Source: Rufibacter psychrotolerans
Lineage (GTDB): Bacteria > Bacteroidota > Bacteroidia > Cytophagales > Hymenobacteraceae
Length of the DNA: 64,000 nt
Direction: 5' to 3'
Assembly (NCBI RefSeq): GCF_016924645.1
Contig: NZ_JAFFJV010000001.1
Span: forward strand, 62,001-126,000
Positions 3,644-62,570 of the stretch are shown one piece after another. Made by a program: the position numbers and the translations under genes. The notes under the pieces were generated by a model. It ran no database searches. It was given only the letters and a program-made list of their open reading frames with translations, and was not told where the DNA came from. Position 1 is the stretch's first letter; every line of letters begins with the position of its first letter.

Positions 3644-3690
3644 AGCGTTTCAGGGCTGTTTTACCCAAAACAGCCCCGAAACGCTTTTTT
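3644..3690 (+). terminator. Rho-independent terminator built from repeat copy 1
   Basis: A 19-bp stem (one G-U pair) with loop ACCC, followed by TTTTTT at 3685-3690. It lies 26 nt after the phosphatidyltransferase stop, between convergent genes. The core is a member of the 36-bp palindrome family. Confidence 0.75.
3647..3682. repeat. 36-bp palindrome family, copy 1
   Basis: Arms GTTTCAGGGCTGTTTT and AAAACAGCCCCGAAAC around ACCC. Near-perfect pairing, extended by flanking AGC/GCT. It sits between the 3' ends of two convergent genes. Confidence 0.8.
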
Positions 3691-4690
3691 ATTGAACACC
3701 GCTGGCGCCCTCAAACAGCTCCAGCATGGGCTCGCCGTCCAGTTTGGGAATGGGCACGCCCAGGAGTTCGGCAATGGTGGGGGCTATGTCTGCCTGGGAA
3801 CGGGGCTTGGTGGCCACGGTGCCGGGTTCCACGTCGGGGCCCAGCACCAGCAAGCTGATGTGGCGGCAGCCCTCGCAGCCGTCGCCGTGGTTCTGGAAAC
3901 GCTCGCCCGTATGGCGGCCGTGGTCGTTGGTGACCAGCAGGGTGGTGGTGTTCCGGTATGAAGGGTGTTTTTGGAGCCATTTCCACAGATCGGCCACCAT
4001 CTGGTCGGTTTCTTCGATAGCGTCCAGGTAGCCCGACCAGTCGCCCTCGTGCGCCTCGGAATCGGGCCCCTTGAGGTTGAGCAGTACGGCGTGGGGCGTG
4101 TGTTTGGCCAGGATCTGCTTGGCCACGCGCAGGGTGGTGGTGTCATCGCGGTAGCCCGAGCCCAGGCCTTCCACTCCGCAGTCCACCGAGGGGGCAAACG
4201 CCGCCGCCGGCTCCTCGCTGGTGGTGCGGGCCAGGATTTCCAGCTTGTCTTTGCTGGTAATGATCCAGGCCTTGTGGGCCGGCGCGCCGGTGTGCTGGCG
4301 GTAATAATGGAACACCGAAGGAGCCTCGGGCACCTCCCTGCCCCGGTTGCTGAGCCGCTGGTAATTGCCCGTCATGAGCGCCACGTGCCCCGGGTTGGTG
4401 AGGGTAACGCCCTTGTTGTAAAAAGCCGGGTGAAACACGCCCTTGGGGGCCAGTTCCCGGGCCATGTGCCGGATGTGGCGGTGGGTAGAGTCGCCCCACG
4501 ACTCGGTGTATCTCACGCCGTCAATCACCACCACTACCACGTTCTGGGTGGCGTAGGTGCGCTGGGGCTGCAGCAGCACGGTGGCTGCCGCCGGTACCGT
4601 CTCGTGCTTGCCCGCCGAAGTAGACTGGCAGGCGCTAACTCCCAGGCCAGAAAGCAGTGCCAATACATTGATCCAAAAGCCTTTCAACAT
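3689..4690 (-). CDS. Alkaline phosphatase-family lipoprotein (type I phosphodiesterase-like)
   Basis: 333 residues. An N-terminal signal with lipobox VSAC (Cys21) predicts an outer-membrane or periplasmic lipoprotein. The alkaline-phosphatase-superfamily metal site is visible: VVVVIDG (Asp57), TLTNPGHVALMTG with nucleophile Thr98, a DSEAH segment, a VTNDHGRHTG segment and NHGDGCEGCRH. This resembles nucleotide pyrophosphatase/phosphodiesterase-like enzymes rather than classic PhoA. It is 31 nt downstream of namZ on the same strand, so it probably shares an operon with namZ and nagZ. A role on wall- or lipid-linked phosphoesters is plausible but inferred. Confidence 0.8.
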   Translation of the reverse strand: MLKGFWINVLALLSGLGVSACQSTSAGKHETVPAAATVLLQPQRTYATQNVVVVVIDGVRYTESWGDSTHRHIRHMARELAPKGVFHPAFYNKGVTLTNPGHVALMTGNYQRLSNRGREVPEAPSVFHYYRQHTGAPAHKAWIITSKDKLEILARTTSEEPAAAFAPSVDCGVEGLGSGYRDDTTTLRVAKQILAKHTPHAVLLNLKGPDSEAHEGDWSGYLDAIEETDQMVADLWKWLQKHPSYRNTTTLLVTNDHGRHTGERFQNHGDGCEGCRHISLLVLGPDVEPGTVATKPRSQADIAPTIAELLGVPIPKLDGEPMLELFEGASGVQ

Positions 4691-4721
4691 GTATCCTTTC
4701 TGTATGGTTGATAGTTGTCTA

Positions 4722-6005
4722 CTACGGATACAGCAGGTATTTGGCTCGCACTTGCTTGAAATAATCTAATTCAGGGCCCCAGCTGGCGATGATGCCGGCC
4801 GGGGTGTCGCCGGCTTGGAGGCGTTGCCGGGTCACGTCGGTTTTCCAGAGCCCGTCCAGGCGGCTGTTCTTCCATTCCAGCTGGGTAGGGTAGAGCGTCT
4901 TGAGCGCATGAATGATGTACACCGAAGCCTTGGCCGACTCAAACTTGGTCCGGTCGGTGACCACGGCCTGCACGCCCTGGCAGGTCTGGCCCACAAACTT
5001 GGGCGGGTAAATCCGGATGCCGTCTACCACGCTGTCGGGTTTGAACTGGGCGGGTTTAAAGGTAATGCCCGCCAATTTGTAGCTGTTCAGCTGTTTGGCC
5101 AGTTTTTCGCCGTTTATCCAAGGAGCCCCAATAAACTCAAAGGGTTGCAGGGTGCCCCGGCCCTCTGACACGTTGGTGCCTTCCAGAATACAGGTAGCGG
5201 GGTACAGCGTGGCGGTGGTGAGGTTGAGCATGTTGGGCGAGGGCTTTACCCACGGCAAACCGGTCTGGTCAAACCACTGTGTACGGGCATAGTGGCGCAT
5301 GGGCACCACCAGCAGTTCGGCCTGGGGTAGTTGGCGGGCGCCGCGCTCCCCGTTGAACATGCGGGCCAGTTCACCCACCGTCATGCCGTGCGTGATGGGC
5401 AGGTAATTGGGGCCGGTCACGGGTTCCCTGGCGTTCTTGCCTACGGCGCCGTCTACATAAAGTCCTGTAATGGGGTTGGGCCGGTCCAGCACTACCAGCA
5501 ACTTGTTATTTTCCGCGGCGGCCTCCAGCACCGCAGTCATGGTGGCAATGTAGGTGTAGTAGCGGGCGCCCACATCCTGAATGTCAAAGAGGAGCACGTC
5601 TACGTCCTGCAGCATCTGTGGGGTGGGCTTGCGCACCTTACCGTAGAGCGAGATGACCTTGAGACCGGTTTTGGGGTCCACAGCGTCGGAGACGTGCGTG
5701 TCTGCCTCGCCCCTGATGCCGTGCTCGGGGCTGAACAGCTTCACCAGTTTCACGTCTGGGCGGGCGTGCAGCAGGTCCACAATGTGGCTTCGGTCTGGCA
5801 TGACCCCAGTGTGGTTGGTTAACACGGCCACCCGGCGGTGTTGCAGGTAGGGGAGAAACTCAGGGGTAACCAACCGTTCAATGCCAATGATGACCCGGTC
5901 TGAGGCGGTTTTGGAAGTTTTGCCCGCCTGCGCGAAGGCGGAAAGGGAGGCCGACAGGCCCAGGAGCAGCACGTAAATAACGCTGAGGGAAAGACGTATT
6001 TTCAT
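4722..6005 (-). CDS. namZ: Exo-beta-N-acetylmuramidase NamZ (DUF1343)
   Basis: 427 residues with a signal peptide (cleavage near ASLSAFAQA). The mature protein is a full-length DUF1343 domain: GIERLV near residue 43, VAVLTNHTGVMPD, LFSPEHGIRG, LLFDIQDVGARYYTY, VVLDRPNPITG and the C-terminal EGTNVSEGRGT segment are family hallmarks. NamZ enzymes release N-acetylmuramic acid from the non-reducing end of peptidoglycan fragments. The upstream gene encodes a NagZ-type beta-N-acetylglucosaminidase, the partner activity that exposes MurNAc ends. Both are exported here, so muropeptide breakdown would take place in the periplasm. Confidence 0.9.
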   Translation of the reverse strand: MKIRLSLSVIYVLLLGLSASLSAFAQAGKTSKTASDRVIIGIERLVTPEFLPYLQHRRVAVLTNHTGVMPDRSHIVDLLHARPDVKLVKLFSPEHGIRGEADTHVSDAVDPKTGLKVISLYGKVRKPTPQMLQDVDVLLFDIQDVGARYYTYIATMTAVLEAAAENNKLLVVLDRPNPITGLYVDGAVGKNAREPVTGPNYLPITHGMTVGELARMFNGERGARQLPQAELLVVPMRHYARTQWFDQTGLPWVKPSPNMLNLTTATLYPATCILEGTNVSEGRGTLQPFEFIGAPWINGEKLAKQLNSYKLAGITFKPAQFKPDSVVDGIRIYPPKFVGQTCQGVQAVVTDRTKFESAKASVYIIHALKTLYPTQLEWKNSRLDGLWKTDVTRQRLQAGDTPAGIIASWGPELDYFKQVRAKYLLYP

Positions 6006-6045
6006 GCCTACAATATAGCAAATTGTGCATGTCTTCTACCCATTC

Positions 6046-6081
6046 GTTTAGAGGCTATTTTGGCTAAAACAGTCCCTAAAC
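6046..6081. repeat. 36-bp palindrome family, copy 2
   Basis: Arms GTTTAGAGGCTATTTT and AAAACAGTCCCTAAAC around GGCT; 13 Watson-Crick pairs plus one wobble. It lies 15 nt beyond the nagZ stop, in the nagZ-namZ gap. Confidence 0.7.
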
Positions 6082-6096
6082 AGAAAGGCAGAAAGG

Positions 6097-9176: not shown

Positions 9177-9212
9177 GTTTATTGGGTGTTTTCCAAAAAT
9201 AAGCCTGAAAAG
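9177..9212. repeat. 36-bp palindrome family, copy 3
   Basis: Arms GTTTATTGGGTGTTTT and AAATAAGCCTGAAAAG; diverged but with the same 16-4-16 geometry, 57 nt after the SDR stop. Confidence 0.5.
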
Positions 9213-9519
9213 TGAGTTCGCTTACCAGATACCAGCGTCGCTGCCTCGGTCCGTTTCCAGGGTCTACGTTCTGGGTTTGGAAGTACCTGCTTTAGACGGT
9301 GGGAAGTTCACGCCTCACGGCAGTTGCAAACTGCCGCTATGGTAGGTCCAAGTCACAGACCTGAACCATGGGAAAAGAAGCATCAACTGGTGGAAACATT
9401 CCTCTTGCCGCCACTAAGAGGAAGTCCGCGTTGATGAAGCGTAGTTCAGGTTGTTGGTGAGAACTCCAACAATGGAGGCAACACCAACAACTTAACGGCG
9501 GCAAACGCCAACAACGGGG

Positions 9520-9654: not shown

Positions 9655-9676
9655 TGGTGCTAAGGTTGTTTTAGGG

Positions 9677-10470
9677 CTACTTTTTGAAAATCTCGGCGAA
9701 AAACAGCTTCATGGCTTCCCAGGAGCGGCGGTCGGCGGCGGCTTGGTAGGCAGCGCCTTTGCTGGGGTCTGAGCCCGCCTGCGGATTGGTAAACGCGTGC
9801 ACGGCACCGCTGTAGGCGATAAACTGGTAGTCTACCTTGGCCTCGTTCATCTCTTTAAAAAAAAGCCGTCCAGCTCGGCCTGGGGCACGAAGGGGTCAAT
9901 GGCACCATGCGCCACCAGGACTTTTGCCTTGATGTTGGCCGCATCGGCGGGATTGGGAGTGCCCAGGCCCCCGTGGAAACTGACCACCCCGGCCACCTGG
10001 GCCCCGCTGCGGGCCAGCTCCAGAACGGTGGTGCCGCCAAAGCAATAGCCAATGGCGGCTACCCGGGCGGCATCAACGTTGGGCTGCTTCTTTAATTGGG
10101 CAAGGCCGGCGTTCACCCGCTGGCGCAGCAACGGAATGTTGTTCTTGTACTTGCCCGACTCGGCCCCCATCGCCTGAGGGGTTGTGGGCCTTACGCCCTT
10201 GCCGTAGATATCGGCCGCAAAGGCCACGTACCCCATTCGGGCCAGCTGGTCGCACCGCTGTCTGGTGTAATCACTGATGCCTTTCCACTCGTGCACCACC
10301 AGCACGGCCGGTAGTTTCCCTTTCCTGGAGGCGTCATAGGCCAGGTAGCCCTCCAGGGTGGTGTTGCCCTCGCGGTACTCCACCAGTTGGGTTTTGATGT
10401 TCTGCCCCTGGGCCGAAAGGTGCGCCGCGGCAGAAAGCAGTAGGACGAGAGCGAGCAAAAGTTTTTTCAT
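9677..10470 (-). pseudogene. Dienelactone hydrolase-family protein, frameshifted at a homopolymer
   Basis: A signal peptide (start 10470, MKKLLLALVLLLSAAAHLSAQ) precedes an alpha/beta-hydrolase with nucleophile motif IGYCFGG and the Asp of AHGAIDPF. The frame then hits eight A (9857-9864 on the plus strand; T8 on the coding strand) and stops at 9847. Adding one T restores a further ~65 codons ending at 9677, including SGAVHAFTNPQAG with the third catalytic residue His. As written, the product lacks that His and the last helices. The interruption may be an assembly error, a true pseudogene or slippage. An AraC regulator gene lies upstream on the same strand. Confidence 0.8.
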
Positions 10471-14650: not shown

Positions 14651-14695
14651 GCAAGGCCTGTCTCTTCTCAGGAGGAGACAGGCCTTGCTGTTTTT
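14651..14695 (+). terminator. Rho-independent terminator
   Basis: A perfect 14-bp stem (14651-14664 with 14675-14688), GC-rich, followed by GTTTTT. Its T tract is the first part of palindrome copy 4. Confidence 0.85.
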
Positions 14696-14725
14696 GGGCT
14701 GTTCTGCCAAAAACCGGCCTAAAAC
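14690..14725. repeat. 36-bp palindrome family, copy 4
   Basis: Arms GTTTTTGGGCTGTTCT and AAAACCGGCCTAAAAC around GCCA. It starts inside the T tract of the preceding terminator. Confidence 0.75.
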
Positions 14726-17494: not shown

Positions 17495-17530
17495 GTTTCA
17501 GGGCTAAAATCCTAGAATCGGCCCTGAAAC
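17495..17530. repeat. 36-bp palindrome family, copy 5
   Basis: Outer arms GTTTCAGGGC and GCCCTGAAAC pair perfectly; the inner part is looser. It lies 50 nt after the SDR stop. Confidence 0.65.
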
Positions 17531-18995: not shown

Positions 18996-19161
18996 TGCTT
19001 TCCCGGGAACTAAAAAAATATTTTTGGTGCAGCCTGCCGCACCTTTGTTTTGGGGCCGTTCTCGTAAAAATTGGCAGAAAACTTGCTGATAAGAGATGTA
19101 CGCAATGATTTGGCAGTGTTTTCGTTGAATCATACGGCGTGTTCTTCTGTTCTAAAACTAT

Positions 19162-20156: not shown

Positions 20157-20192
20157 GGTTCAGCCCGGTTTTGCGGAAAACTGCCTAAAAAC
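20157..20192. repeat. 36-bp palindrome family, copy 6
   Basis: Arms GGTTCAGCCCGGTTTT and AAAACTGCCTAAAAAC around GCGG. Diverged copy, 7 nt after the terminator T tract. Confidence 0.5.
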
Positions 20193-20338
20193 AGCCGGCA
20201 AGCACCGCTTCAGCGGGATGGTTGACCAATCACCACCAGGCGCTACCGTTTTTGACCTGTTTTTATGAAAACCGCCGAAAAACCGCGCCTGCCAGGCCAA
20301 CTGGTGCAAGATTCCATTTTTTGCCGTACCTTTTGGGT

Positions 20339-21259: not shown

Positions 21260-21302
21260 GGCGGAGAGGGACAGATAATTCCGGCCTTTTTTACGCAAAT
21301 CG

Positions 21303-21337
21303 GTTTTAGGCTCATTTCATGAAAATGGGCCTAAAAC
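21303..21337. repeat. 36-bp palindrome family, copy 7 (35 bp)
   Basis: GTTTTAGGCTCATTTC and AAATGGGCCTAAAAC, with flanking AATCG/CGATT extending the stem to about 20 bp. It lies 43 nt after the M28 stop. Confidence 0.8.
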
Positions 21338-23677: not shown

Positions 23678-23790
23678 ATGTTCGGTTATGGGTTATCAGT
23701 TTTTATGAACGTGAACCACCCAAACAGGTTTAGGAAAAATACCTAGCGGTCTTCCTGAGAAACAAAAGGGACTATGAGCCATTTGGCGCC

Positions 23791-23815
23791 GTTTTGGAGA
23801 AAACAGGCCCAAAAC
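23791..23815. repeat. 36-bp palindrome family, copy 8 (shortened, 25 bp)
   Basis: GTTTTGG and CCAAAAC arms kept, the centre deleted. It lies 29 nt beyond the 3' end of the gene at 23845. Confidence 0.6.
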
Positions 23816-26411: not shown

Positions 26412-26432
26412 CGATTGGGTTTCTCTTAAAAA

Positions 26433-26471
26433 CAAAAGAGCGGCATCTGATAGGTGCCGCTCTTTTGTTTT
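26433..26471 (+). terminator. Rho-independent terminator
   Basis: CAAAAGAGCGGCA and TGCCGCTCTTTTG form a perfect 13-bp stem (26433-26445 with 26455-26467), then TTTT. Confidence 0.88.
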
Positions 26472-26502
26472 GGGTCTGTTTTAGCCAAAACCGGCCTAAA
26501 AC
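26467..26502. repeat. 36-bp palindrome family, copy 9
   Basis: Arms GTTTTGGGTCTGTTTT and AAAACCGGCCTAAAAC around AGCC; 15 of 16 positions pair (two wobbles). It begins in the T tract of the terminator and ends 6 nt from the 3' end of the convergent M28 gene. Confidence 0.85.
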
Positions 26503-28972: not shown

Positions 28973-28987
28973 AGTGACAGAGTAGAA

Positions 28988-29023
28988 ACAAAAAGGGAGC
29001 CTTTACCAAGGCTCCCTTTTTGT
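28988..29023 (-). terminator. Rho-independent terminator of the S9 peptidase gene
   Basis: ACAAAAAGGGAGCCTT and AAGGCTCCCTTTTTGT form a perfect 16-bp stem with loop TACC. Symmetric, so it could act in both directions; it follows copy 10 on the minus strand. Confidence 0.85.
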
Positions 29024-29028
29024 TTCCT

Positions 29029-29064
29029 GTTTCAGACCTGTTTTCTGAAAAACAGTCCAGAAAT
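29029..29064. repeat. 36-bp palindrome family, copy 10
   Basis: Arms GTTTCAGACCTGTTTT and AAAACAGTCCAGAAAT around CTGA. It starts 7 nt beyond the S9 stop and is followed 5 nt later by the terminator. Confidence 0.7.
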
Positions 29065-29071
29065 GGAGTTC

Positions 29072-31231
29072 TTACTTTAAATGCTCATCAAAGTACTGCG
29101 TCACCTTCTTGTACAGGTGCACGCGGTCTTTGCCCATCACGTTATGCGGGTGGCCCGGGTACACGAAATAATCCAGCAGCACGCCTTCATCTACGGCTTT
29201 CTTGAGGAAAGCCTGGCTGTGTTGCCACAACACCACATCGTCAACGGTGCCGTGGATCATGAGCAGTTTGCCTTTCAGGTTTTTTACGTAGTTGAGCAGG
29301 TTGGCTTTCTGGAAACCCTCGGGGTTTTCCTGGGGCGTGTCCATGTAGCGCTCGGTGTACATGATCTCGTAGAGGCGCCAGTCAATCACGGGACCACCGG
29401 CGATGCCTACTTTGAACACGTCTGGGTGTTTCAGCATTAAAGAAGTGGTCATGAAGCCGCCGTAGCTCCAGCCGTGCACACCCAGGCGGGACGCATCTAC
29501 GTAAGGCAGGCCCTTGAGGTATTCTACGCCTTTCAGTTGGTCGCTCACCTCAGGGGTGCCTACCTGCCGGAAGATGGCCTGCTCAAACGCCCGGCCTCTA
29601 TCGGCGGAGCCGCGGTTGTCCAAGGTGAAGACAATGTAGCCTTTCTGGGCCATCATTTGCATCCAGAGGTTAGAGCCACCCAGCCAGCTGTTGGTGATCA
29701 TTTGGGCGTGCGGACCGCCGTACACGTACACCACCACCGGGTATTTCTTCTTCTCATCGAAGTTGGGCGGAGTGATCATGCGGCAGAAAAGATCGGTACC
29801 GTCCTCGGCCTTGATGGGGAAAATGGTGGTCTCGCCTAGTTTGTAGTCCTGCAGCGGATTTTGGGCCACCAGCAAGGTTTTGGCCACTTTCCCGGCATCG
29901 GTGTCCAGGATACGGATGGTGCGCGGGGTTACCGGGCTGCTGTAGTTATCAATGAAGTACTGGCTGGTGGGCCCGAAGCTGATGTTGTGCACGCCGCTTC
30001 CCTGGGTGAGTCTACCGGTACGGCCGGTACTGAGTTCTACGGCATACAGATGGCGCTCCAGCGGGCTTTCGGCGGTGGAGGTGTAGTACGTTTCGCGGCC
30101 GTTTTTGTCAAAACCCACTAAATCCGTCACCACCCACTCGCCTTTGGTCAGTTGCCTAATGAGCTGGCCGTTTGTGTTGTAGAGGTACAGGTGGTTGAAG
30201 CCGTCGCGCTCACTAATCCACACGAATTGGTCAGTTCTGCCCGGCACAAAGTACAGCGGGTGCTCTGGCTCAACCCATTTCTCGTTCTGCTCCTCAAACA
30301 GGGTTTTCACGAAGGCTCCGGTAGCGGCATCGTACTGGTTCAGCCACATGTGGTTCTGGGCGCGGTTCACCACGGCCAGGTAGATGTGTTTCTCGTCGGG
30401 GCTCCAGGTCAGGTTAGTGAGGTACTGCTCGGCGGGCTCGCCGGTTTTCAGGAAGACGGTTTTGCCGGAGGCCACGTTGTACACACCCACGGTTACGTGG
30501 TGGCTTTTGGCGCCCGCCATGGGGTACTTGATGTTGTTGAGTTTGGCGGGCATCTGGTCAATGCTCACCAGCGGGTAATCGGTGACCATGGTCTGGTCCA
30601 TGCGGTAAAAGGCCAGGCTGTTGCCGCTGGGGCTCCAGAACGTACCCTTCCTGATCCCGAACTCAGAGCGGTGGGCCGCCTGTCCGTTCACAATCTCGGG
30701 GTTGGTTTCCTGCGTGATGGGCACGTTCTCTTTGCCAGGCTGGGAGATGAACAGGTTCTGCGCTTTGGTATAGGCGGCGCGTTGCTTGTTGGGCGCAAAA
30801 TCTACATTCTCGGCGGCGGCATCCAGTTTGTAAAAGGCTTGGCCGGTTTTGTTCCGCACGTTGTAGCGGTACACGGTGCCTTTCTGGTTCAGGAGGACTT
30901 CCTGGCCGTTGAGCCACTGCAAACCGTTCACGGTGGAGACTTTGCTGGCTCCGGCTTTCTCCAGGGCTGCGCTCAGGTCGGTGGCGGTTAAGATGACCTG
31001 AGGATTGCCTTTGAGGCCTCCGCGCAGAAGCTGGTCGTAGCGGTCACTTACGTAACTGTACTCGTTGGTGCCGGGCACCCAGGTGAGCTGGCGCAGGTTG
31101 GCCGGCGTGAGCGCAGGGTTTTGGAAAGCGTCTTCCACGGTGAGCGTCTTTTGCTGCGCCGTTACCGAAAAAGAAGCCAGAAACAGGAGCCAGAGCAGCA
31201 GGAGCCCGGCAAGCGGTTGTTTATGCGTCAT
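29072..31231 (-). CDS. S9-family peptidase (dipeptidyl peptidase IV-like)
   Basis: 719 residues with a signal peptide (LLLLWLLFLASFSVTAQ). The N-terminal ~460 residues form a beta-propeller (repeated Trp-Ser-Pro-Asp/Gly-type blades such as TWSPDEKHIYLAV). The C-terminal alpha/beta-hydrolase has nucleophile Ser in GWSYGGFM, Asp in GTVDDVV and His in PGHPHNV. DPP IV-like enzymes cut Xaa-Pro/Ala dipeptides from peptide N termini; here in the periplasm. The double Glu motif was not examined in detail. Standing next to M28 and aminopeptidase P genes, it suggests a peptide-feeding lifestyle. Confidence 0.92.
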   Translation of the reverse strand: MTHKQPLAGLLLLWLLFLASFSVTAQQKTLTVEDAFQNPALTPANLRQLTWVPGTNEYSYVSDRYDQLLRGGLKGNPQVILTATDLSAALEKAGASKVSTVNGLQWLNGQEVLLNQKGTVYRYNVRNKTGQAFYKLDAAAENVDFAPNKQRAAYTKAQNLFISQPGKENVPITQETNPEIVNGQAAHRSEFGIRKGTFWSPSGNSLAFYRMDQTMVTDYPLVSIDQMPAKLNNIKYPMAGAKSHHVTVGVYNVASGKTVFLKTGEPAEQYLTNLTWSPDEKHIYLAVVNRAQNHMWLNQYDAATGAFVKTLFEEQNEKWVEPEHPLYFVPGRTDQFVWISERDGFNHLYLYNTNGQLIRQLTKGEWVVTDLVGFDKNGRETYYTSTAESPLERHLYAVELSTGRTGRLTQGSGVHNISFGPTSQYFIDNYSSPVTPRTIRILDTDAGKVAKTLLVAQNPLQDYKLGETTIFPIKAEDGTDLFCRMITPPNFDEKKKYPVVVYVYGGPHAQMITNSWLGGSNLWMQMMAQKGYIVFTLDNRGSADRGRAFEQAIFRQVGTPEVSDQLKGVEYLKGLPYVDASRLGVHGWSYGGFMTTSLMLKHPDVFKVGIAGGPVIDWRLYEIMYTERYMDTPQENPEGFQKANLLNYVKNLKGKLLMIHGTVDDVVLWQHSQAFLKKAVDEGVLLDYFVYPGHPHNVMGKDRVHLYKKVTQYFDEHLK

Positions 31232-32330: not shown

Positions 32331-32366
32331 GTTTTTGGCTTATTTTACAGAAAACACCCCAGAAAT
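32331..32366. repeat. 36-bp palindrome family, copy 11
   Basis: Arms GTTTTTGGCTTATTTT and AAAACACCCCAGAAAT around ACAG. It begins at the base after the recR stop codon. Confidence 0.65.
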
Positions 32367-34582: not shown

Positions 34583-35791
34583 ATGATTACTAGCCAACAA
34601 AAAACACTTTCAGACCGCATTACCTCCCTGGCCGAGTCTCAGACCATCGCCATGGCGAAGAAGGCCCGTGAGCTGGCCGCCAAAGGGGTGGATGTGATCA
34701 ATTTGAGTTTCGGGGAGCCTGATTTCCAGACCCCGCAGTACATCAAAGACGCTGCCAAGAAAGCCATTGACGATGGCTATACCTTTTATACGCCGGTGGC
34801 CGGCTACCCCGAGCTGCGCAAAGCCATTGTAGAGAAACTGCGCCGCGACAACGGCCTGGAGTACGGCCCCGAGAACATTGTGGTGTCTACCGGCGCCAAG
34901 CAGTCCATCGCCAATGCCGTGATGTGCCTGGTAAACCCCGGCGATGAGGTGATCATTATCTCTCCGTACTGGGTGAGCTACGAGGAAGTGGTGAAACTGG
35001 CCGAGGGGATTCCAGTGCCCGTGCGCGGTTCCCTGGAGAACGACTACAAGATCACGGCCCAGCAACTGGAAGACGCCATTACAGCCAACACCAAACTGGT
35101 GATGTACTCTTCACCTTGTAACCCAACCGGTTCTGTGTTCACCAAGGAGGAACTGGCTGCTTTTGCCGCTATTCTGGAAAAACACCCGCAAATCCACGTC
35201 ATCGCCGATGAGATTTATGAGTACATCAACTTCACCGGTGAGCACTACAGCCTGGCTCGTTTTGAGTCCATCAAAGACCGCGTGATCACCGTGAACGGCT
35301 TCTCCAAAGGATACGCCATGACCGGCTGGCGCGTAGGCTACATTGCGGCCCACAAAGACATTGCCGAAGCCTGCGACAAAATGCAGAGCCAGATCACCAG
35401 CGGTACCTGCTCTATTGCCCAGAAAGCCGCCCAAGGCGCGCTGGAAGGTGGCCGCGGTTCTGCCGAGGAAATGAGTGCGTCTTACCTGCGCCGCCGTGAC
35501 CTGGTGCTGGGCCTGATGAAGGACATCCCGGGCATTAAAACCTACGTGCCGCAGGGCGCTTTCTACATCTTCCCGGATGTGAGCGAATTCTTCGGCAAGT
35601 CAACCGGCGACACCGTGATCCAGAACGCCAACGACCTGGCCATGTACCTGCTCAATGATGCGCACGTTTCTCTGGTGGAAGGTGGAGCCTTCGGGGCGCC
35701 GGAGTGTATCCGGTTCTCTTTTGCGGCCTCAGACGCCAAATTGATTGAGGCGCTGGAGCGAATTAAGGCTAGTTTGGCCAAACTGAGCTAA
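34583..35791 (+). CDS. PLP-dependent class I aminotransferase (aspartate aminotransferase-like)
   Basis: 402 residues of fold-type I. The PLP lysine is in NGFSKGYAMTGWRVGY (residues ~232-247); NPTGSVF, ADEIYEYI and the C-terminal IRFSFA arginine motif are all present. The opening INLSFGEPDFQTP and YTPVAGYPELRKA match the group I-gamma/alpha aspartate aminotransferases. It probably makes aspartate or other amino acids from 2-oxo acids; exact specificity (Asp, aromatic) is uncertain. Confidence 0.9.
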   Translation: MITSQQKTLSDRITSLAESQTIAMAKKARELAAKGVDVINLSFGEPDFQTPQYIKDAAKKAIDDGYTFYTPVAGYPELRKAIVEKLRRDNGLEYGPENIVVSTGAKQSIANAVMCLVNPGDEVIIISPYWVSYEEVVKLAEGIPVPVRGSLENDYKITAQQLEDAITANTKLVMYSSPCNPTGSVFTKEELAAFAAILEKHPQIHVIADEIYEYINFTGEHYSLARFESIKDRVITVNGFSKGYAMTGWRVGYIAAHKDIAEACDKMQSQITSGTCSIAQKAAQGALEGGRGSAEEMSASYLRRRDLVLGLMKDIPGIKTYVPQGAFYIFPDVSEFFGKSTGDTVIQNANDLAMYLLNDAHVSLVEGGAFGAPECIRFSFAASDAKLIEALERIKASLAKLS

Positions 35792-37260: not shown

Positions 37261-37277
37261 GCTCGCCAGAGGCGAGC
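37261..37277. repeat. Third copy of the GCTCGCC-GGCGAGC palindrome
   Basis: GCTCGCCAGAGGCGAGC, continuing as GAG, matches the arm of the large inverted repeat 120 bp upstream with one change in the centre. Confidence 0.7.
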
Positions 37278-37293: not shown

Positions 37294-37338
37294 AACCGAA
37301 ACGGCCTCTTGCACCAAGTGCAAGAGGCCGTTTCGGTT
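37294..37338 (-). terminator. Strong bidirectional terminator downstream of hemE
   Basis: A perfect 21-bp stem (37294-37314 with 37318-37338) with loop CAA. It stands after palindrome copy 12 on the minus strand, whose left arm overlaps it. Confidence 0.8.
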
Positions 37339-37365
37339 ATATTTTCAGGAAAACAGGTCAGAAAC
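37330..37365. repeat. 36-bp palindrome family, copy 12
   Basis: Arms GTTTCGGTTATATTTT and AAAACAGGTCAGAAAC around CAGG. It ends 2 nt from the hemE stop codon and its left arm overlaps the terminator's right arm. Confidence 0.65.
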
Positions 37366-38495: not shown

Positions 38496-38531
38496 GTTTT
38501 AGGCTTATTTTTGAAAAATCGGCTTAAAAAC
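38496..38531. repeat. 36-bp palindrome family, copy 13
   Basis: Arms GTTTTAGGCTTATTTT and AAATCGGCTTAAAAAC, with most positions pairing. It lies 10 nt beyond the marC stop. Confidence 0.75.
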
Positions 38532-42694: not shown

Positions 42695-44155
42695 ATGAAG
42701 AACGCGTTACGCCTGTGTAGCTGGGGCCTACTCACGTTGCTGGCCTTTGGCTGCTATAAGATCAAAGGACATTACGGCGGACCCAAGATCTTTGACCCGC
42801 TCACCCGGGCCCTGCAGCCCCAGGACGTGGCCCTGCCGGCGGGCTACTCCATTACGCCCGTTGCCGCCAACCTCACGTACCCCACGGGCATTACGTTTGA
42901 CGAGCAGGGCACCGCGTACGTGACTGAATCTGGGTACGCCTACGGCGAAGTCTGGTTGCCTCCCAAACTGCTGCGCCTGAACCCAGACGGAACCACCACC
43001 CAGATTGCGGCCGGCGACAAGAATGGTCCCTGGACCGGGGCCACGTACCACAACGGATTTTTCTACGTGTCTGAGGGCGGACAGCTGGAGGGCGGCCGTA
43101 TCCTCAAAATCTCCCGCACCGGCGAGATAACCCGCCTGGTGGAAAACCTGCCCAGCCTGGGCGACCACCATACTGATGCCCCGGTGGTGGGGCAGGACGG
43201 CTACCTGTACTTCGGGCAGGGAACGGCCACCAACTCCGGGGTGGTAGGCACCGACAACTACCACTACGGGTGGCTTAAACGAAACCCCGCTTTCCATGAC
43301 ATTCCGTGCAAAGACATCACCCTGACGGGGCAAAACTTCACCACCTACAATCCCTTAACCGAGGACGACAAAGATGAGGTAACCACCGGGGCGTATCTGC
43401 CCTTCGGGACGGCCAGCACGCCCAACCAGACCATTAAAGGCGCCATTCCGTGTTCCGGGGCCATTTTCAGGGTGCCGGTACAGGGCGGTCCGCTGGAGCT
43501 GGTGGCCTGGGGCTTGCGTAATCCGTTCGGGCTGGCATTCTCCCCCAGCCACCAGCTCTACGTCACCGACAACGGCTACGATACCCGCGGCAGCAGGCCG
43601 GGCTACGGCACCGGAGATGTGCTGTGGGCGGTGCAACCGGGCCACTGGTACGGCTGGCCAGACTTTGCGGCCGGGCAGCCCATGGCCTCAGATGACTACA
43701 AGACCCCGCACGATGACCCTAAATTCCTGCTGGCCAGGCACCCGGGCACGCCTCCCAAGCCCGCCGCCATCCTGGGCGTGCATTCCTCGTCTAACGGGCT
43801 GGACTTTTCGCGCAGCGCCAGTTTCGGGCACGTGGGCGAGGCGTTTATTGCCCAGTTTGGCGATATGACGCCCGAAGTAGGGCACGCCTACGGTCCCGTG
43901 GGGTTCAAGGTGGTGCGGGTGAACCCGATGAACGGAGTGGTGGAAGATTTCGCGGTGAACAAAAGTAAGACCAACGGACCGGCTTCCATGATGAAAAACG
44001 GCGGGCTGGAGAGGCCCATTGCCGTGAAGTTTAACCCGGCCGGCACCGAGCTGTACGTGGTGGACTTTGGTATTATGCCCATGACCGAGCAAGGCCCCGC
44101 GCCCAAGCAGCAGACCGGCGTTGTCTGGAAAATCACTAAAACCGCTGCCAAATGA
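42695..44155 (+). CDS. PQQ-dependent sorbosone/glucose dehydrogenase-like lipoprotein
   Basis: 486 residues from ATG 42695 (upstream TTG 42665 also in frame). Probable lipoprotein: LLTLLAFGC. The rest is a six-bladed beta-propeller of the GSDH/sorbosone dehydrogenase type: LTYPTGITFDEQGTAYVTES, GDHHTDAPVVGQDGYLYFGQG (His near the substrate/PQQ site), RNPFGLAFSP, YVTDNGYDTRG and RPIAVKFNPAGTELYVVDFG. PQQ use is known for relatives; here it is inferred. The next gene is a cytochrome c overlapping by 4 nt, a natural electron acceptor. Confidence 0.85.
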   Translation: MKNALRLCSWGLLTLLAFGCYKIKGHYGGPKIFDPLTRALQPQDVALPAGYSITPVAANLTYPTGITFDEQGTAYVTESGYAYGEVWLPPKLLRLNPDGTTTQIAAGDKNGPWTGATYHNGFFYVSEGGQLEGGRILKISRTGEITRLVENLPSLGDHHTDAPVVGQDGYLYFGQGTATNSGVVGTDNYHYGWLKRNPAFHDIPCKDITLTGQNFTTYNPLTEDDKDEVTTGAYLPFGTASTPNQTIKGAIPCSGAIFRVPVQGGPLELVAWGLRNPFGLAFSPSHQLYVTDNGYDTRGSRPGYGTGDVLWAVQPGHWYGWPDFAAGQPMASDDYKTPHDDPKFLLARHPGTPPKPAAILGVHSSSNGLDFSRSASFGHVGEAFIAQFGDMTPEVGHAYGPVGFKVVRVNPMNGVVEDFAVNKSKTNGPASMMKNGGLERPIAVKFNPAGTELYVVDFGIMPMTEQGPAPKQQTGVVWKITKTAAK

Positions 44156-46966: not shown

Positions 46967-47002
46967 GTTTTGGGCCTGTTTTCGGGTAAACGGGCCCAGA
47001 AC
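46967..47002. repeat. 36-bp palindrome family, copy 14
   Basis: Arms GTTTTGGGCCTGTTTT and TAAACGGGCCCAGAAC around CGGG. It starts 5 nt after the histidine-phosphatase stop and lies between convergent genes. Confidence 0.8.
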
Positions 47003-47853: not shown

Positions 47854-48816
47854 CTAATTTCTGGCAAGCCGGTACCGGGCGGGCGAGCAGCCCACTATTT
47901 TCCGGAAGGTGCGGCTAAACGCCGATACCTCTGGGTAACCGCAAAGCAGCGCCACTTCCCCCACCGGGAGCCGGGTTTTCTGCAGCAGGGGCAGGCTGCG
48001 CTCTATGCGGTGCTGCAGCAGAAACTGGTGGGGCGTGCGGCCGTGCACCTGGCTGAACGCCCGCAGAAAATGGAACTTAGACAAACAGGCCAGTTGGGCA
48101 AGTGCCTCCAGGGTGGGGGTTTGGTCAGGGTAGGCCAGCAGGTAATCGGTGGCCAGGGCGATGCGCTTAAACAGTTCGGCCCGGGCACTGGCTTTGGCCG
48201 CCGCAAGCTGGTTGCACCGCCGGTGCAGTTCCTGCTTTTGCTGTAACAAGGCGTGCAGCACAGGAACCAGGTGCTCCTGCAACTCCAGGGCCGTTGGCGG
48301 GGCCGCTGCGCCCAGGCGGTGGAGGCGGGCGAGGGCGGCATCCAGGGCGGGAGTTTTCCGTTGCAGCAGGTTGGGGAATTCTGAGGAGCCAGCCTCTAAC
48401 GGAAGCGAGATAGGATTGTCCAGGAGCTGCGGGGCCGCGCTAATATGGGCTTTCACGAAGTCTTCCCAAAGGTCCTGGCCCAGGTGCAGGTTAAAGGTTT
48501 CTATCGGCTGGCCCGGGCTGTCAATGTCCAGGGTGTAGTGCTGGGCGCGGTTGGTCAGGAAAAAGCAGTCTGGCGGCACCGCCACTTTCTTGTTGCCGGC
48601 GCTCACGTAAGAAGTCCCGCTCAGGTTGGTGAACAGCGAGAAAGGCCCTTTGATGTCGGGGCGGTGGCACTGGGTAGCCTGGGTGTTCAGGATGACCAGG
48701 GGCCACTCAAACGCGGGCTGCGCCTGGCTTGGTGCGGCCGGCCCAGACGGGTCCCGAAAAGCGCTGTCGGCTCGTTCTTTCAGTTGCCGGTAATCAGGAA
48801 ACTCTTTCAGGAACAT
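47854..48816 (-). CDS. AraC-family transcriptional regulator
   Basis: 320 residues from ATG 48816 (MFLKEFPDYRQ); the frame opens at 48879 but the extra 21 residues overlap repeat copy 15. N-terminal ~190 residues are a cupin-like sensory domain (PPDCFFLTNRAQHYTLDI, IETFNLHLG). The C-terminal HTH pair has LEALAQLACLSKFHFLRAFSQVHGRTPHQFLLQHRI and VGEVALLCGYPEVSAFSRTFRKIVGCSPARYR, both canonical. Ligand unknown. Likely governs itself and the membrane-protein gene. Confidence 0.87.
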   Translation of the reverse strand: MFLKEFPDYRQLKERADSAFRDPSGPAAPSQAQPAFEWPLVILNTQATQCHRPDIKGPFSLFTNLSGTSYVSAGNKKVAVPPDCFFLTNRAQHYTLDIDSPGQPIETFNLHLGQDLWEDFVKAHISAAPQLLDNPISLPLEAGSSEFPNLLQRKTPALDAALARLHRLGAAAPPTALELQEHLVPVLHALLQQKQELHRRCNQLAAAKASARAELFKRIALATDYLLAYPDQTPTLEALAQLACLSKFHFLRAFSQVHGRTPHQFLLQHRIERSLPLLQKTRLPVGEVALLCGYPEVSAFSRTFRKIVGCSPARYRLARN

Positions 48817-48850
48817 TTTGGGGCTGTTTTCAGAAATGTAGCTGAAAATC
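48815..48850. repeat. 36-bp palindrome family, copy 15 (diverged)
   Basis: Left arm ATTTTGGGGCTGTTTT is good; the right side (AATGTAGCTGAAAATC) is weak. It begins at the ATG of the AraC gene, in its leader. Confidence 0.4.
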
Positions 48851-48899: not shown

Positions 48900-48935
48900 G
48901 TTTTCATGCTTTTTTTGAGAAAACCGGGCAGAAAC
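48900..48935. repeat. 36-bp palindrome family, copy 16
   Basis: GTTTTCATGCTTTTTT and AAAACCGGGCAGAAAC around TGAG; flanked by CCC/GGG. It lies 12 nt beyond the exonuclease stop. Confidence 0.6.
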
Positions 48936-49666: not shown

Positions 49667-49702
49667 GTTTTGGGGCCTTTTCAAGAGAAATGGGCCCAAA
49701 AC
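49667..49702. repeat. 36-bp palindrome family, copy 17
   Basis: Arms GTTTTGGGGCCTTTTC and GAAATGGGCCCAAAAC around AAGA. Nearly perfect pairing, upstream of the exonuclease gene. Confidence 0.8.
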
Positions 49703-52563: not shown

Positions 52564-52599
52564 GTTTTTGACTTGTTTTTTGGAAAGGAGGGCTAAAAT
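52564..52599. repeat. 36-bp palindrome family, copy 18
   Basis: GTTTTTGACTTGTTTT and AAAGGAGGGCTAAAAT around TTGG. Diverged, with about nine pairs; upstream of the cassette, not near a gene end. Confidence 0.45.
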
Positions 52600-58193: not shown

Positions 58194-58199
58194 TAATCT

Positions 58200-59039: not shown

Positions 59040-59203
59040 GTAGGGCGGGCGGGTCCTTTTAGACATAACCGCTTGTCCTCCTACACTGGCACGCCGTATG
59101 GCCCCGGTGACCTGCTTCGCGCCATTCATGCGCTTTTTACAATCGTTCGCACCCATCATCTACATATTAATTCCTCCAGAGAAACAGCTTAGCAAGACAG
59201 TAC

Positions 59204-60784
59204 ATGAAAAAATCAGTTCTATTAGCCGGCAGCCTGCTCATGGCCTGGGCAGTACAGGCCCAATCTACGGTAAACGGGTACGTTTATGAAGATGTCAACG
59301 GCAATGGCCGGAAAGACAAACGCGAAAAAGGAATCCAGAAAGTAGCCGTGACCAATGGCCGCGAAGTAACCCTGACGGATGCAAAAGGAAAGTACACCCT
59401 GCCGGTAGGGCAGGATAACATTATCTCGGTGATTAAACCCAGCGGCTATAACGTGCGCCTCAACTCCGCTAATCTGCCGCAGTTCTACTACATCCACAAA
59501 CCACAGGGTTCCCCAGCCCTCAAGTTCAAAGGCGTGGCCCCCACCGGACCGCTCCCTAAATCCGTGGACTTTGCGCTTGCTCCGGCCCAGGAAGGCGATG
59601 AGTTCACGATGTTGCTCTTCGGCGATCCGCAGCCCTATACAGAGCAGGAAGTGGATTTCTTTGCCCGCGGCATTGTGGCCGAGGTAGAGGGCATCAAGAA
59701 TGTACCCTTCGGGTTAAGCCTGGGTGATCTGGTGGGCAATGACCTTAAATTATTCAACCCCTACATCAAAGCCGTGAAGAAGGTGGGCATTCCCTGGTAC
59801 AACCTCATGGGCAACCACGACATTAACTTTGATGCCAAAGCCGATTCATTGGCTGACGAAACCTACGAGGCGCACTTTGGCCCGGCCAACTACGCCTTCA
59901 ACTACGGCAAGGTACACTTCATTGTATTGGACGATGTGTTGTACCCAGACCCCAGAGACGGCAAAAGCTACTGGGGCGGGTTCCGGAAAGACCAGCTGGA
60001 TTTTGTGGAGAATGACCTGAAACTGGTGCCCAAAGACCATCTGGTGGTGCTAGCCTTTCACATCCCGCTCAGCGAGCCCGATGGGGATGCTTTCCGTGAC
60101 GAGGATCGGCAACGTCTCTTTGACTTGCTCAAAGACCATCCGCATACGCTTTCCCTCTCAGCGCACACGCACTTGCAGAAGCAGGATTTCTTTTCCAAGG
60201 CGGAAGGCTGGCACCAGGATAAACCACACCACCATTACAACGCAGGCACCACCTCCGGAGACTGGTACTCGGGCAAGCTGGACCAGAACGGAGTGCCTGA
60301 GTCTACCATGCGCGATGGCACGCCCAAGGGCTACGCTTTCCTCCATTTCAAAGGCAGCCAATACACCATTGACTACAAAGTAGCCAACCAACCCAAGGAA
60401 TACCAGATGGATCTGTTCCTGCCCAAGGTGGTGGCCAGGGGGAGGAATACCTCGGCCGGTGTTTTCGTCAATTTCTTCATGGGAAGCGAGCGGGACACGG
60501 TCTTATACCGGGTAGATGACGGCCCCTGGAAACCCATGGCTTTTCAAAGCGACTATGATCCGGCCTTCCTGCACAAGCTGCACGAATGGGACCTTGCCGA
60601 GGAACTGATGCCCGGGCGGAGACCCTCTAACCCAGCCAAAAGCCAGCACCTGTGGAGGGGCAATATTCCTACCAACCTGAGCGTGGGGGAGCATGCCATT
60701 GAAGTAAAAGCCACGGACATGTTTGGCCGCACCTTTACCCAAAAAGGCCGCTACCGCATTGAAGAACCCAAACAGGTTCAGTAG
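59204..60784 (+). CDS. Metallophosphoesterase with N-terminal Ig-like and C-terminal domains
   Basis: 526 residues, signal peptide (VLLAGSLLMAWAVQA). Residues ~22-95 form a MetallophosN-type beta-sandwich (NGYVYEDVNGNGRKD...); ~125-370 is a calcineurin-like core: LLFGDPQ, SLGDLVGN, LMGNHDIN, LAFHIPLS and SAHTHLQ, the di-metal site; the last ~150 residues are the MetallophosC-like domain. These enzymes hydrolyse phosphomono- or diesters. Together with EEP and SusCD it completes a probable phosphoester-scavenging cassette. Confidence 0.88.
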   Translation: MKKSVLLAGSLLMAWAVQAQSTVNGYVYEDVNGNGRKDKREKGIQKVAVTNGREVTLTDAKGKYTLPVGQDNIISVIKPSGYNVRLNSANLPQFYYIHKPQGSPALKFKGVAPTGPLPKSVDFALAPAQEGDEFTMLLFGDPQPYTEQEVDFFARGIVAEVEGIKNVPFGLSLGDLVGNDLKLFNPYIKAVKKVGIPWYNLMGNHDINFDAKADSLADETYEAHFGPANYAFNYGKVHFIVLDDVLYPDPRDGKSYWGGFRKDQLDFVENDLKLVPKDHLVVLAFHIPLSEPDGDAFRDEDRQRLFDLLKDHPHTLSLSAHTHLQKQDFFSKAEGWHQDKPHHHYNAGTTSGDWYSGKLDQNGVPESTMRDGTPKGYAFLHFKGSQYTIDYKVANQPKEYQMDLFLPKVVARGRNTSAGVFVNFFMGSERDTVLYRVDDGPWKPMAFQSDYDPAFLHKLHEWDLAEELMPGRRPSNPAKSQHLWRGNIPTNLSVGEHAIEVKATDMFGRTFTQKGRYRIEEPKQVQ

Positions 60785-60809
60785 GTCAACTTCTTTCACG
60801 GAACCAGAA

Positions 60810-60857
60810 ACTGGGTTCAGGGCAGGCAGGTAATCTTCTGCCCGCTCTGAACCCAGT
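60810..60857. terminator. Terminator-like hairpin after the metallophosphoesterase
   Basis: ACTGGGTTCAG pairs with CTGAACCCAGT, with an inner GGCAG/CTGCC stem. No T tract follows on either strand, so termination strength is uncertain. Confidence 0.5.
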
Positions 60858-60966
60858 ACTGTGAATGGGGGGCGTGCTATCAGTTACGTCGTACGAGTTA
60901 CTTACATACAGAGAACTCCCGCGCCAGGGCGGAAATGGACCAAAGCCGGGGAATGGCTTCTATGGT

Positions 60967-61572
60967 TTACCGCCTGCGGAACCGGGGCTGGTAAGAAGCC
61001 TTGGGCTTGGCAAGGGCCTGTAGTTTGCTCACTTCGGCAGGGGTAAGCGGCCTGAACTCACCCGGCTGCAAATCTCCTAGTTGCAGCGGGCCAATGGCTA
61101 CCCGTACCAACCGAAGCGTGGGAAACCCTACGGCCGCGGTCATCTTGCGCACCTGGCGGTTCATGCCCTGGCTGATTTTGATTTCCACCCAAGTGGTGGG
61201 AATGTTGGCCCGGAACCGGATGGGCCTGGAGCGCTCCCAAAAGGCAACATCTTCCAGGAGCCTGGCTTTGGCCGGGGCGGTCTTCTTGCCCTGGATGACT
61301 ACGCCCCGTTCTAATTGGTCCAAGGCTTCATCAGTGGGTACGCCTTCCACCTGCACCCAATAGGTTTTCTCCACCTTGAACTTAGGGTCTGAGAGGCGGT
61401 GCTGCAGTTGTTTGTCGTCGGTGAGCAGGACCAGGCCTTCGCTGTCATAGTCCAGGCGGCCCACCGGGTATACGTTGGGCACTTGCACATAGTCTTTCAA
61501 GGTGCGGCGGCCCGTTTCATCGGTGAACTGGGTGAGGACTTCAAACGGCTTGTTGAGGAGAAGGTAATGCAC
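60967..61572 (-). CDS. RsuA/RluE-type pseudouridine synthase
   Basis: 201 residues from GTG 61572, which puts the canonical VHYLLLNKPFEVLTQFTDETGR at the start; the frame is open to 61749 with an ATG, but that leader is Arg-rich and not S4-like. The catalytic motif is GRLDYDSEGLVLLTDD near residue 40, with Asp in GRLD. KTYWVQVEG, then the late EIKISQGMNRQVRKM complete the RluE/RluB/RsuA branch. No S4 domain in the chosen form, as in RluE. It modifies rRNA uridines. Confidence 0.88.
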   Translation of the reverse strand: MHYLLLNKPFEVLTQFTDETGRRTLKDYVQVPNVYPVGRLDYDSEGLVLLTDDKQLQHRLSDPKFKVEKTYWVQVEGVPTDEALDQLERGVVIQGKKTAPAKARLLEDVAFWERSRPIRFRANIPTTWVEIKISQGMNRQVRKMTAAVGFPTLRLVRVAIGPLQLGDLQPGEFRPLTPAEVSKLQALAKPKASYQPRFRRR

Positions 61573-61662
61573 GGGCGTTAGGGATTGTGGAGAGGACAAA
61601 GGTACGGCTTTACGGTGGCTTGGGCTAATCTGACCGCAGAGGGCTAATCGTGCCCTGGTCCC

Positions 61663-61698
61663 GTTTTTAACCCCATTTTGCCAAAACAGGCCCGAAAC
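61663..61698. repeat. 36-bp palindrome family, copy 19
   Basis: Arms GTTTTTAACCCCATTT and AAAACAGGCCCGAAAC around TGCC, with CG extending outward. It lies 47 nt beyond the 3' end of the lipoprotein gene. Confidence 0.6.
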
Positions 61699-61745
61699 GG
61701 TTTTGCCTTTTGTGCGTTCCCGGCACCTGGTGCGCCCGGCCGGTT

Positions 61746-62492
61746 TCACCGAAGCCTGAGCCGCAGGTACTGGAAGGTATTGCTGGGCATTCCGTTTTCG
61801 GCGGCCATGAATTCCACGGGCGTTACCTGCAGCAAGATGGCGTGGTCAGATTCCCAGACAAAGTCGCGGGGTGCCCAGACCTGTTGGTCCAGCTCCAGGA
61901 ACTTCCGCACGGTAAACGACCCATCGCCTTGGGCCGATGGCGTTACCTGCCACACCTGCACGCCGTTGGGTACGCCCTCCAGTCCGTACGGCAAAGACAA
62001 ATTGGCCAGGTACCGCTGGCCGGGGGACAGCACCGGGTCAGACCAGGTGGTGGTCACCGTACCGGTGGCTTGGTTGATCAGGTAGCCTTCATAGTGTTCC
62101 CAGAAGGCACCCGTGACCAGGTAGTGCCCAATGGTGGGGTATTGCCCGGCGTATCGGAACTCCCTGGCGTCTACCTCATCTGTGCCCACCAGGGTGTCGG
62201 TGAATACCACGTAGGGCTGCGCCAACCGGCGGGTAGGAATCCGGAGAACGCCTTGCTTCTTCCGGATGAGGAGGGTGTCTTGCCGGAACGGGTCGTTGAA
62301 CCGGCTTTTGGCCGCGTCAAATTGGGCCGAGGTGGCTTGCTCTATCCTGAAGTGGGGGTGGGGCTGCGCAGAGTCACGTGCGGCAGGCGGCTGCGCAATG
62401 GCGGCCGGCTTGGCGGGGGTACCGGCCACATTGGCTGGCTGGTCGCAGCCTGGCCCAAGAAGAGCAAGCATTCCGAAGATCAGATGCCGCAT
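61746..62492 (-). CDS. Probable lipoprotein of unknown function
   Basis: 248 residues from ATG 62492, where a lipoprotein-like signal begins (HLIFGMLALLGPGC); the lipobox is imperfect (Gly-Pro before the Cys), so this is tentative. No known domain. The mature part is rich in beta-prone residues with motifs such as GHYLVTGAFWEHYEGYLI and WAPRDFVWESDHAILL. It is divergent from the small lipoprotein gene and sits 173 nt upstream of the pseudouridine synthase on the same strand. Possibly an envelope protein. Confidence 0.6.
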   Translation of the reverse strand: MRHLIFGMLALLGPGCDQPANVAGTPAKPAAIAQPPAARDSAQPHPHFRIEQATSAQFDAAKSRFNDPFRQDTLLIRKKQGVLRIPTRRLAQPYVVFTDTLVGTDEVDAREFRYAGQYPTIGHYLVTGAFWEHYEGYLINQATGTVTTTWSDPVLSPGQRYLANLSLPYGLEGVPNGVQVWQVTPSAQGDGSFTVRKFLELDQQVWAPRDFVWESDHAILLQVTPVEFMAAENGMPSNTFQYLRLRLR

Positions 62493-62535
62493 CACTGGTA
62501 GTAAGGGGTAGGTCTGGGGCATGAGGCGCACCGCT

Positions 62536-62570
62536 GTTTTGGGGCAAGGTACCAAAAACGGCTCAGAAAC
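62536..62570. repeat. 36-bp palindrome family, copy 20
   Basis: GTTTTGGGGC and right arm AAAACGGCTCAGAAAC; centre diverged, 35 bp. In the divergent intergenic region. Confidence 0.5.

Follow-up and report, generated by a model that had tools for sequence, protein, structure and literature searches.

Introduction

DNA uptake sequences (DUS) of Neisseriaceae and uptake signal sequences of Pasteurellaceae are described, in the portions of the sources drawn on here, as thousands of dispersed copies that form dialects by species or clade, favour permissive places and gene ends, also lie within genes and are conserved above their flanks (PMC3630211, PMC2397512). Repetitive extragenic palindromes (REP/REPIN) with their RAYT transposases appear, in comparable portions of their literature, as short, palindromic, extragenic elements of high copy number that are specific to lineages (PMC3733652, PMC8049555). 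In a 64,000-nt stretch of the genome of Rufibacter psychrotolerans (assembly GCF_016924645.1, contig NZ_JAFFJV010000001.1, positions 62,001 to 126,000), called the window throughout, an earlier note made by reading the letters had pointed to a dispersed interrupted palindrome of 36 bp, the subject of this study. A further kind of repeated site, the pho-box-like tandem sites of OmpR/PhoB-type regulators, consists of seven-base boxes every 11 bp.

Here we describe the palindrome as a dyad of 36-44 bp that occurs in Rufibacter in large numbers, at shared places, in species dialects and also inside genes. We consider that the dyads are probably DNA sites that are read by a protein and have been re-tuned in place. 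To their use as an uptake-like mark of the cell's own DNA we commit ourselves weakly, as a possibility.

Results

Abundance, anatomy and distribution of the dyad

A weight matrix trained on 250 intergenic copies, the window's own copies included, scored 35 sites in the window at 8 bits or more; the mirrored window, used as control, had one, and 100 Markov resamplings of the window gave a mean of 0.2 such sites and a maximum of 3. In the whole genome that holds the window (G000), 333 places matched a 36-base pattern with at most two mismatches, and the backward pattern matched none. Within 800 kb of this genome, we found 334 non-overlapping copies at up to six mismatches, and the mirrored 800 kb gave six matches of exactly six mismatches and one of exactly five. 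By extrapolation from these 800 kb, we estimate about 2,100 copies in 5.18 Mb.

Column counts were made on 255 transcript-oriented copies of G000 and of its sister genome, G011. They showed a box CYGTTTY at columns -1 to 5 and a box CYRTTTT at columns 10 to 16, with the reverse complements of these boxes at columns 21-27 and 32-38. The dyad thus has four boxes, one every 11 bp, of which the first two face the last two. Half-sites with no or one mismatch had a facing partner in 182/200 cases on contig C13 of G000 and in 79/100 cases in G011. Column 9 was C or G in 230 of the 255 copies, and its combinations with column 28 (C-G, G-G, G-C and C-C) were about equally frequent (58, 57, 53 and 51 of 250). 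The information content of the motif is 37-56 bits, compared with the roughly 11 bits needed for finding the sites.

The 36-base sign is confined to one genus, Rufibacter. A first pattern occurred at 34 to 1185 places in each of the 16 Rufibacter genomes (G000 and the others, G001-G015) and at a single place in 1 of 43 other genomes. A second pattern occurred at 18 to 1188 places in all 16 genomes and once each in 6 of 188 other members of the family, which is chance level, the backward control being found once each in 7 of the 188. HemE, the product of a gene in the window that is flanked by copies, has Sabulibacter ruber as its nearest named relative (99%). A search for spaced dyads in the hemE neighbourhoods of Pontibacter and other Cytophagales found no analogue of the dyad geometry among the top-ranked dyads. 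The Pontibacter neighbourhoods (L066-L099) showed a different dyad, CCCC-N14-GGGG (49 observed, 6.3 expected), perhaps one orthologous hairpin counted across many species.

Outside the cellular genomes, a viral collection yielded one exact match (L266, 1275-1310), in IMGVR_UViG_2839759663_000002. This 39-kb contig probably stems from a Rufibacter, as a prophage or as plain host DNA, and its copy follows a terminator-like hairpin directly, like copies in host genomes. A plasmid search with one 126-base query gave two weak matches in other genera. In the literature searched, outside which most subscription journals lie, there was nothing on repetitive extragenic palindromes of Hymenobacter, and none of the matching papers among the matches listed named Rufibacter.

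Shared places and conservation of single bases

The 252 copies on C13 were compared with the sister genome; 137 lay outside the aligned region, 55 were without usable synteny and 60 were alignable. Among these 60, 44 faced a scored copy in G011 without a large gap, 4 had one elsewhere in the intergenic gap, and 12 had neither a scored G011 copy nor a large alignment gap, while a clean absence was seen in 0/60. Two copies, C13:2494 and C13:82156, face a sister gap, both in a poorly aligned context and with another copy nearby.

The places are shared well beyond the sister genome. A copy with up to six mismatches stood 1-5 bp behind the hemE stop codon in 13/16 genus genomes, the exceptions being G005 and G001, where the copy lies further down, and G003, with seven mismatches; within the 260 bp upstream of hemE, a copy by the same threshold was found in 12/16. 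When orthologous gaps were pooled over all gap types and over species pairs that are not independent of each other, a copy was present in both species in 573 gaps, in one in 350 and in neither in 559 (odds ratio 10.8). The distance to a gap end was kept within 12 bp in 172 of 240 single-copy shared gaps, counted over pairs with at least four such gaps. Even between dialects there was little gain or loss (G013-G006, 13 gaps with both and 1 one-sided; G012-G013, 8 and 2).

In 34 ungapped intergenic pairs of G000 and G011, columns 1-4, 14-15, 22-23 and 33-36 were identical in 88-100%, compared with 59% for the flanks, and columns 6 and 17-20 in 44-56%; the comparison leaves out rows with gaps and rows with neither a sister copy nor 20 identical bases, and its G000 copies were picked by the pattern, so that the pattern columns are favoured.

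Sites inside genes

Within genes of G000, called by a home-made codon-usage script, there were 79 sites of at least 10 bits. The mirrored control gave 0, and re-spacing the halves by +3 to +6 bases left 0-3; these controls were preferred to permuted columns, in which the runs of T and A are destroyed. G011 showed the in-gene excess too, as did, in small samples, the seven other G000-like species, and in Pontibacter it was near zero. Frames and positions in the gene were mixed among the 69 in-gene sites that lie in well-supported genes.

These sites appear to have arisen without insertion. Fourteen of the 15 in-gene sites in C13:40-200 kb could be aligned with at least one other species, and the gaps at these 14 were single ones, at two sites in G006 and at one in G013. 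The site at 35159 of the window is present in G000, G011, G008, G015 and G009 and absent in ten other genus genomes, and the 75 residues around it are 83-99% identical and gap-free with or without the site. At the 21 C13 in-gene sites that are gap-free in G011, third codon positions of the core were identical to the sister in 73/84 cases compared with 503/839 in the flanks (p = 4e-7), and 71 re-spaced controls showed no such effect (core 187/284, flanks 1888/2836). Accordingly, the gap-free sites and their conserved synonymous positions point to point substitution, with the DNA word itself under selection or drive.

Species dialects

Characteristic spellings were found in G012, G004, G013/G006, G005 and G001. 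When copies were assigned by six species models, the own species was chosen for 37/37 copies of G012, 15/17 of G004, 28/35 of G001, 18/27 of G005, 21/27 of G013 and 9/22 of G006, the last two species sharing one spelling. Of the copies in shared gaps, 109/125 fitted the model of their own species better. In samples of 4-20 gaps, the orthologous copies of dialect-species pairs were hardly more similar to each other than non-orthologous ones; for many pairs of G000-like species orthologous copies were more similar, except in G011-G010, G000-G015 and G011-G015. Mismatches against the dialect were weakly correlated between the two arms of a copy (-0.33 to 0.32), which argues against replacement of whole units.

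On contigs C1, C8 and C10 of G004, the GTTTAGGGGC dialect occurs together with near-perfect copies spelled GTTTTTGGCC and GTTTCGGGGC; several sub-dialects therefore coexist in one genome.

Position relative to genes and terminators

In the 800 kb of G000, 300 of the 334 copies were intergenic by the home-made gene calls, and copies occupied 52/74 convergent, 162/370 tandem and 25/73 divergent gaps. Copies of the 176 single-copy tandem gaps of G000 and G011 started 0-8 bp behind the stop codon in 28 cases, compared with 9.6 under uniform placement, and 9 lay in the last 40 bp before the start codon, compared with about 42. The GC content of blocks correlated with the number of copies (r = 0.52 over 29 blocks). 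On the one hand, this placement would suit a protein that works at the ends of transcription units, as discussed below. On the other hand, the position behind stop codons would also suit RNA hairpins that act as transcription terminators or stabilise 3' ends.

For such hairpins speaks that the copy was nested in a terminator stem-loop, forming the top of its stem, in 17 of 305 copy/gene-end cases, that further copies abut one, and that terminators were commoner at tandem-gap gene ends with a copy (47/157) than without (22/167), although this is in part because copy-bearing tandem gaps are longer. Against them, no terminator was found in 187 of the 305 cases, terminators at convergent-gap gene ends were equally common with a copy (59/116) and without (26/46), and sites exist inside genes. 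In the window, a dyad site is fused at its GTTT/AAAC end with a terminator-like hairpin, or directly adjoins one there, at 26429-26471, 28985-29026 and 37294-37338.

Pairing between the arms

Pairs 7-8 and 10-13 of G000 showed no pairing excess over shuffles, and at pair 9 (9/28) a weak excess was confined to the best copies. Pairs 5/32 and 6/31 and several flanking pairs covaried. Covariation in other species concerned pairs 5, 6 or 9 and a few single inner pairs (pair 12 in G012, z 5.9; pairs 9 and 11 in G001, z 3.9; pair 13 in G005, z 3.4). Mismatches in transcript orientation were G.U in 321 and A.C in 288 cases (p = 0.19; flanks 184 and 186), and at pairs 5 and 6 the counts were 25 vs 37 and 26 vs 19, without a consistent preference for G.U. 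Rfam gave no match within the window. With this and the negative G.U test, we rejected an RNA hairpin.

The earlier note held that the arms change together and took this as a sign of selection on structure or of a mobile palindrome. The joint change is real at the outer pairs 5/32 and 6/31, in the flanks and, in the best copies, at 9/28, but it does not extend to pairs 7-8 and 10-13 of G000; the compensatory changes that the note had set as a check are accordingly seen at some outer pairs and at single inner pairs of other species, not at most inner pairs of G000. Because there is no G.U preference and the inner G000 pairs do not covary, the copies are not shaped mainly by selection on a fold. 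A mobile palindrome does not agree with places that are common across the genus, with the lack of clean absences among the 60 alignable copies or with sites inside genes whose protein alignments have hardly any gaps, and we rejected it since neither the sister alignment nor the orthologous gaps gave convincing empty sites or new places. We read the copies as being recognised, in all likelihood, as double-stranded DNA, each half largely alone and the outer part with symmetric sub-families.

Sites in the window

The main sites are collected in Table 1. As to the list given in the earlier note, its abundant dispersed family stands in both enrichment over randomised sequence, which it had proposed as a check, and relatedness of the copies. 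Nineteen of its 20 coordinates match sites of at least 8 bits, one of them displaced by a base (21303) and one weak (62536), whereas 23791 reads, out of register, a site that starts at 23780. The family is larger than the 20 or so copies counted there, with the unlisted intergenic sites at 9668, 19047 and 20248, weaker intergenic ones at 9511, 32404 and 35817, and nine weaker ones inside genes. The statement that none lies between 39 and 46.9 kb holds if a weak match of 12.1 bits inside a gene, at 43843, is set aside.

Table 1. Dyad sites of the window, in window coordinates, with weight-matrix scores; gene names follow our own reading.
Feature	Position	Strand	Score (bits)	Remarks
Dyad site	3647..3682	.	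44.6	Convergent gap; aligned with G011 copy
Dyad site	6046..6081	.	36.8	
Dyad site	9177..9212	.	26.5	
Dyad site	9668..9703	.	27.2	Absent from earlier list
Dyad site	14690..14725	.	42.3	
Dyad site	17495..17530	.	28.9	
Dyad site	19047..19082	.	31.0	Absent from earlier list
Dyad site	20157..20192	.	34.9	
Dyad site	20248..20283	.	42.5	Absent from earlier list
Dyad site	21302..21337	.	36.8	Earlier listed as 21303
Dyad site	23780..23815	.	35.0	Earlier listed, shifted, as 23791
Dyad site	26467..26502	.	42.0	Immediately after terminator-like hairpin
Dyad site	29029..29064	.	42.7	Adjoins terminator-like hairpin
In-gene site, weak	30090..30125	.	17.7	S9-peptidase-like gene
Dyad site	32331..32366	.	37.5	Immediately after stop codon
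In-gene site	35159..35194	.	20.0	Aminotransferase-like gene
Dyad site	37330..37365	.	33.1	2 bp behind stop of hemE (- strand)
Dyad site	38496..38531	.	37.3	Upstream of hemE
Dyad site	46967..47002	.	41.5	5 bp behind stop codon
Dyad site	48815..48850	.	26.8	
Dyad site	48900..48935	.	36.0	
Dyad site	49667..49702	.	39.3	
Dyad site	52564..52599	.	36.3	
Dyad site	61663..61698	.	39.3	
Dyad site, weak	62535..62570	.	10.9	Earlier listed as 62536

A second hairpin word, GCTCGCC...GGCGAGC, lies at approximately 37261-37277 of the window and is enriched in the intergenic DNA of G000, where dyads TCGC-N9 and CTCG-N7 were observed 25 and 23 times with about 1 expected.

Discussion

We consider it likely, judging from the sequence patterns, that the dyads are read as double-stranded DNA by a dimeric sequence-specific protein, for the present a candidate, one subunit of which would bind each half-site. 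The dialects would then track the changing preference of this reader. Biased uptake or recombination would maintain the own-DNA mark, as with DNA uptake sequences, and the mark would be polished where the sequence is free to change, foremost behind stop codons. The ComEC family was present in 16/16 genus genomes. Taken as a whole, dimer-read dyads that are re-tuned in place and serve as an own-DNA mark are our best explanation, which we put forward tentatively and as somewhat short of probable. It is doubtful whether they go as far as to form a new class of self-DNA mark in Bacteroidota, in which a dimeric receptor of a 36-44 bp dyad with four helically spaced boxes would, each time its preference shifts, convert hundreds to thousands of fixed chromosomal places to another dialect and would shape even synonymous codons.

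Several results weigh against this explanation or parts of it. A search for operator clusters found no reader gene in 2.76 Mb; the one cluster that it returned (4 copies within 900 bp) lies in an ordinary place. The bias of the G000/G011 base comparison toward pattern columns has been noted above, and re-spacing the halves by 1 or 2 bases left 8 to 57 in-gene sites of at least 10 bits, because T and A runs overlap. Covariation at the outer pairs of G000 and at single inner pairs of other species speaks against halves that are independent. As for uptake, ComEC is widespread, being found also in 10/14 control genomes, and the copies are clumped in their spacing (coefficient of variation 1.15, compared with 0.88 for random placement in gaps). 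Moreover, gaps unmatched to the sister were occupied about as often (23/50) as orthologous gaps (27/58), and the species with sharp dialects showed a slight in-gene excess with few sites.

The closest rival supposes that the sites bind a nucleoid or boundary protein specific to the genus, by which transcription units are anchored or insulated at their ends; sites and protein would coevolve by selection and without uptake. This is unlikely in itself, yet nearly as likely as the uptake use. Four boxes spaced by 11 bp in a dyad would fit such a protein, as would the starts just behind stop codons, the depletion before start codons, the order of occupancy from convergent to divergent gaps and the more frequent terminators of copy-bearing tandem gaps. 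However, a role tied to gene ends does not suit copies in divergent gaps or the in-gene sites, which are found throughout genes and in every frame, the information in the motif is far beyond what recognition needs, and a change of dialect at many sites is hard to explain through selection alone.

It is less likely than either, and on the whole improbable, that the dyads are a REP/REPIN-like family spread by a transposase, homogenised by new copies and then partly kept. The high copy number and intergenic location agree with such a family, as do the near-perfect homogeneous copies in G012, G013, G005 and G001, and the covarying outer columns could be remnants of sub-families. Y1_Tnp (RAYT-like) genes occur in 15/16 genus genomes, and copies are slightly denser near them (0.56 per kb, 38 copies in 21 loci of about 3.2 kb, the 21 being the readable ones among 30, compared with 0.35-0.43 per kb). 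The densest readable Y1_Tnp locus (L196; G001:C100, about 16.6 kb) has seven dyad sites in 3.2 kb. On the other hand, places are shared with little gain or loss even between dialects, and no alignable copy was cleanly absent in the sister. Y1_Tnp is also present in 33 of 43 non-Rufibacter genomes, in which the repeat is lacking or occurs once, while G006 carries the repeat and has no Y1_Tnp at the cut-off. A link to RAYT was therefore rejected, the flanks being little richer in copies. Terminal tags were rare, with GTAG/CTAC at 23/20 and CGTC/GACG at 4/6 in 250 copies ±12 bp (counts alone, with no background figure), and the arm-mismatch correlation stays below the roughly 0.65 that exponential copy ages would give by our own estimate. 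That the dyads work mainly as RNA hairpins is very unlikely, given the terminator and pairing results above.

If the dyads are protein-read sites re-tuned in place, matched site sets across lineages (about 2,000 sites by estimate, absent from sister genera) would offer a natural series for measuring the coevolution of a reader and its targets, in which fixed places with drifting spelling separate copying from in-place drive. Should the uptake reading be true, uptake signals would extend beyond the two families from which, to our knowledge, they are known. If instead the nucleoid reading is true, the dyads would be an unusually specific chromosome-structuring code.

In comparison with the known systems, the Rufibacter dyads share seven-base boxes repeated every 11 bp with pho-box-like sites, but here two tandem pairs face each other, in very many copies and with no regulator linked. 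With REP/REPIN elements they share shortness, palindromy, extragenic location, high copy number and lineage specificity, and they differ in arms of 16 bp rather than stems of 5-13 bp, in the rarity of GTAG/CGTC tags, in the lack of a clear RAYT link, in shared places and in in-gene sites without insertion. From the DUS they differ in a way that counts against uptake, since the Rufibacter unit is a strict dyad of 36-44 bp and known uptake signals need none. Good Rufibacter half-sites are also rarely alone, spacing is uneven, and sister-unmatched gaps show no clear depletion. Nevertheless, the dyads resemble the DUS in high copy number and in dialects by species or clade and, in G000 and G011, in a preference for permissive places and gene ends, copies in genes (few in the dialect species) and conservation above the flanks.

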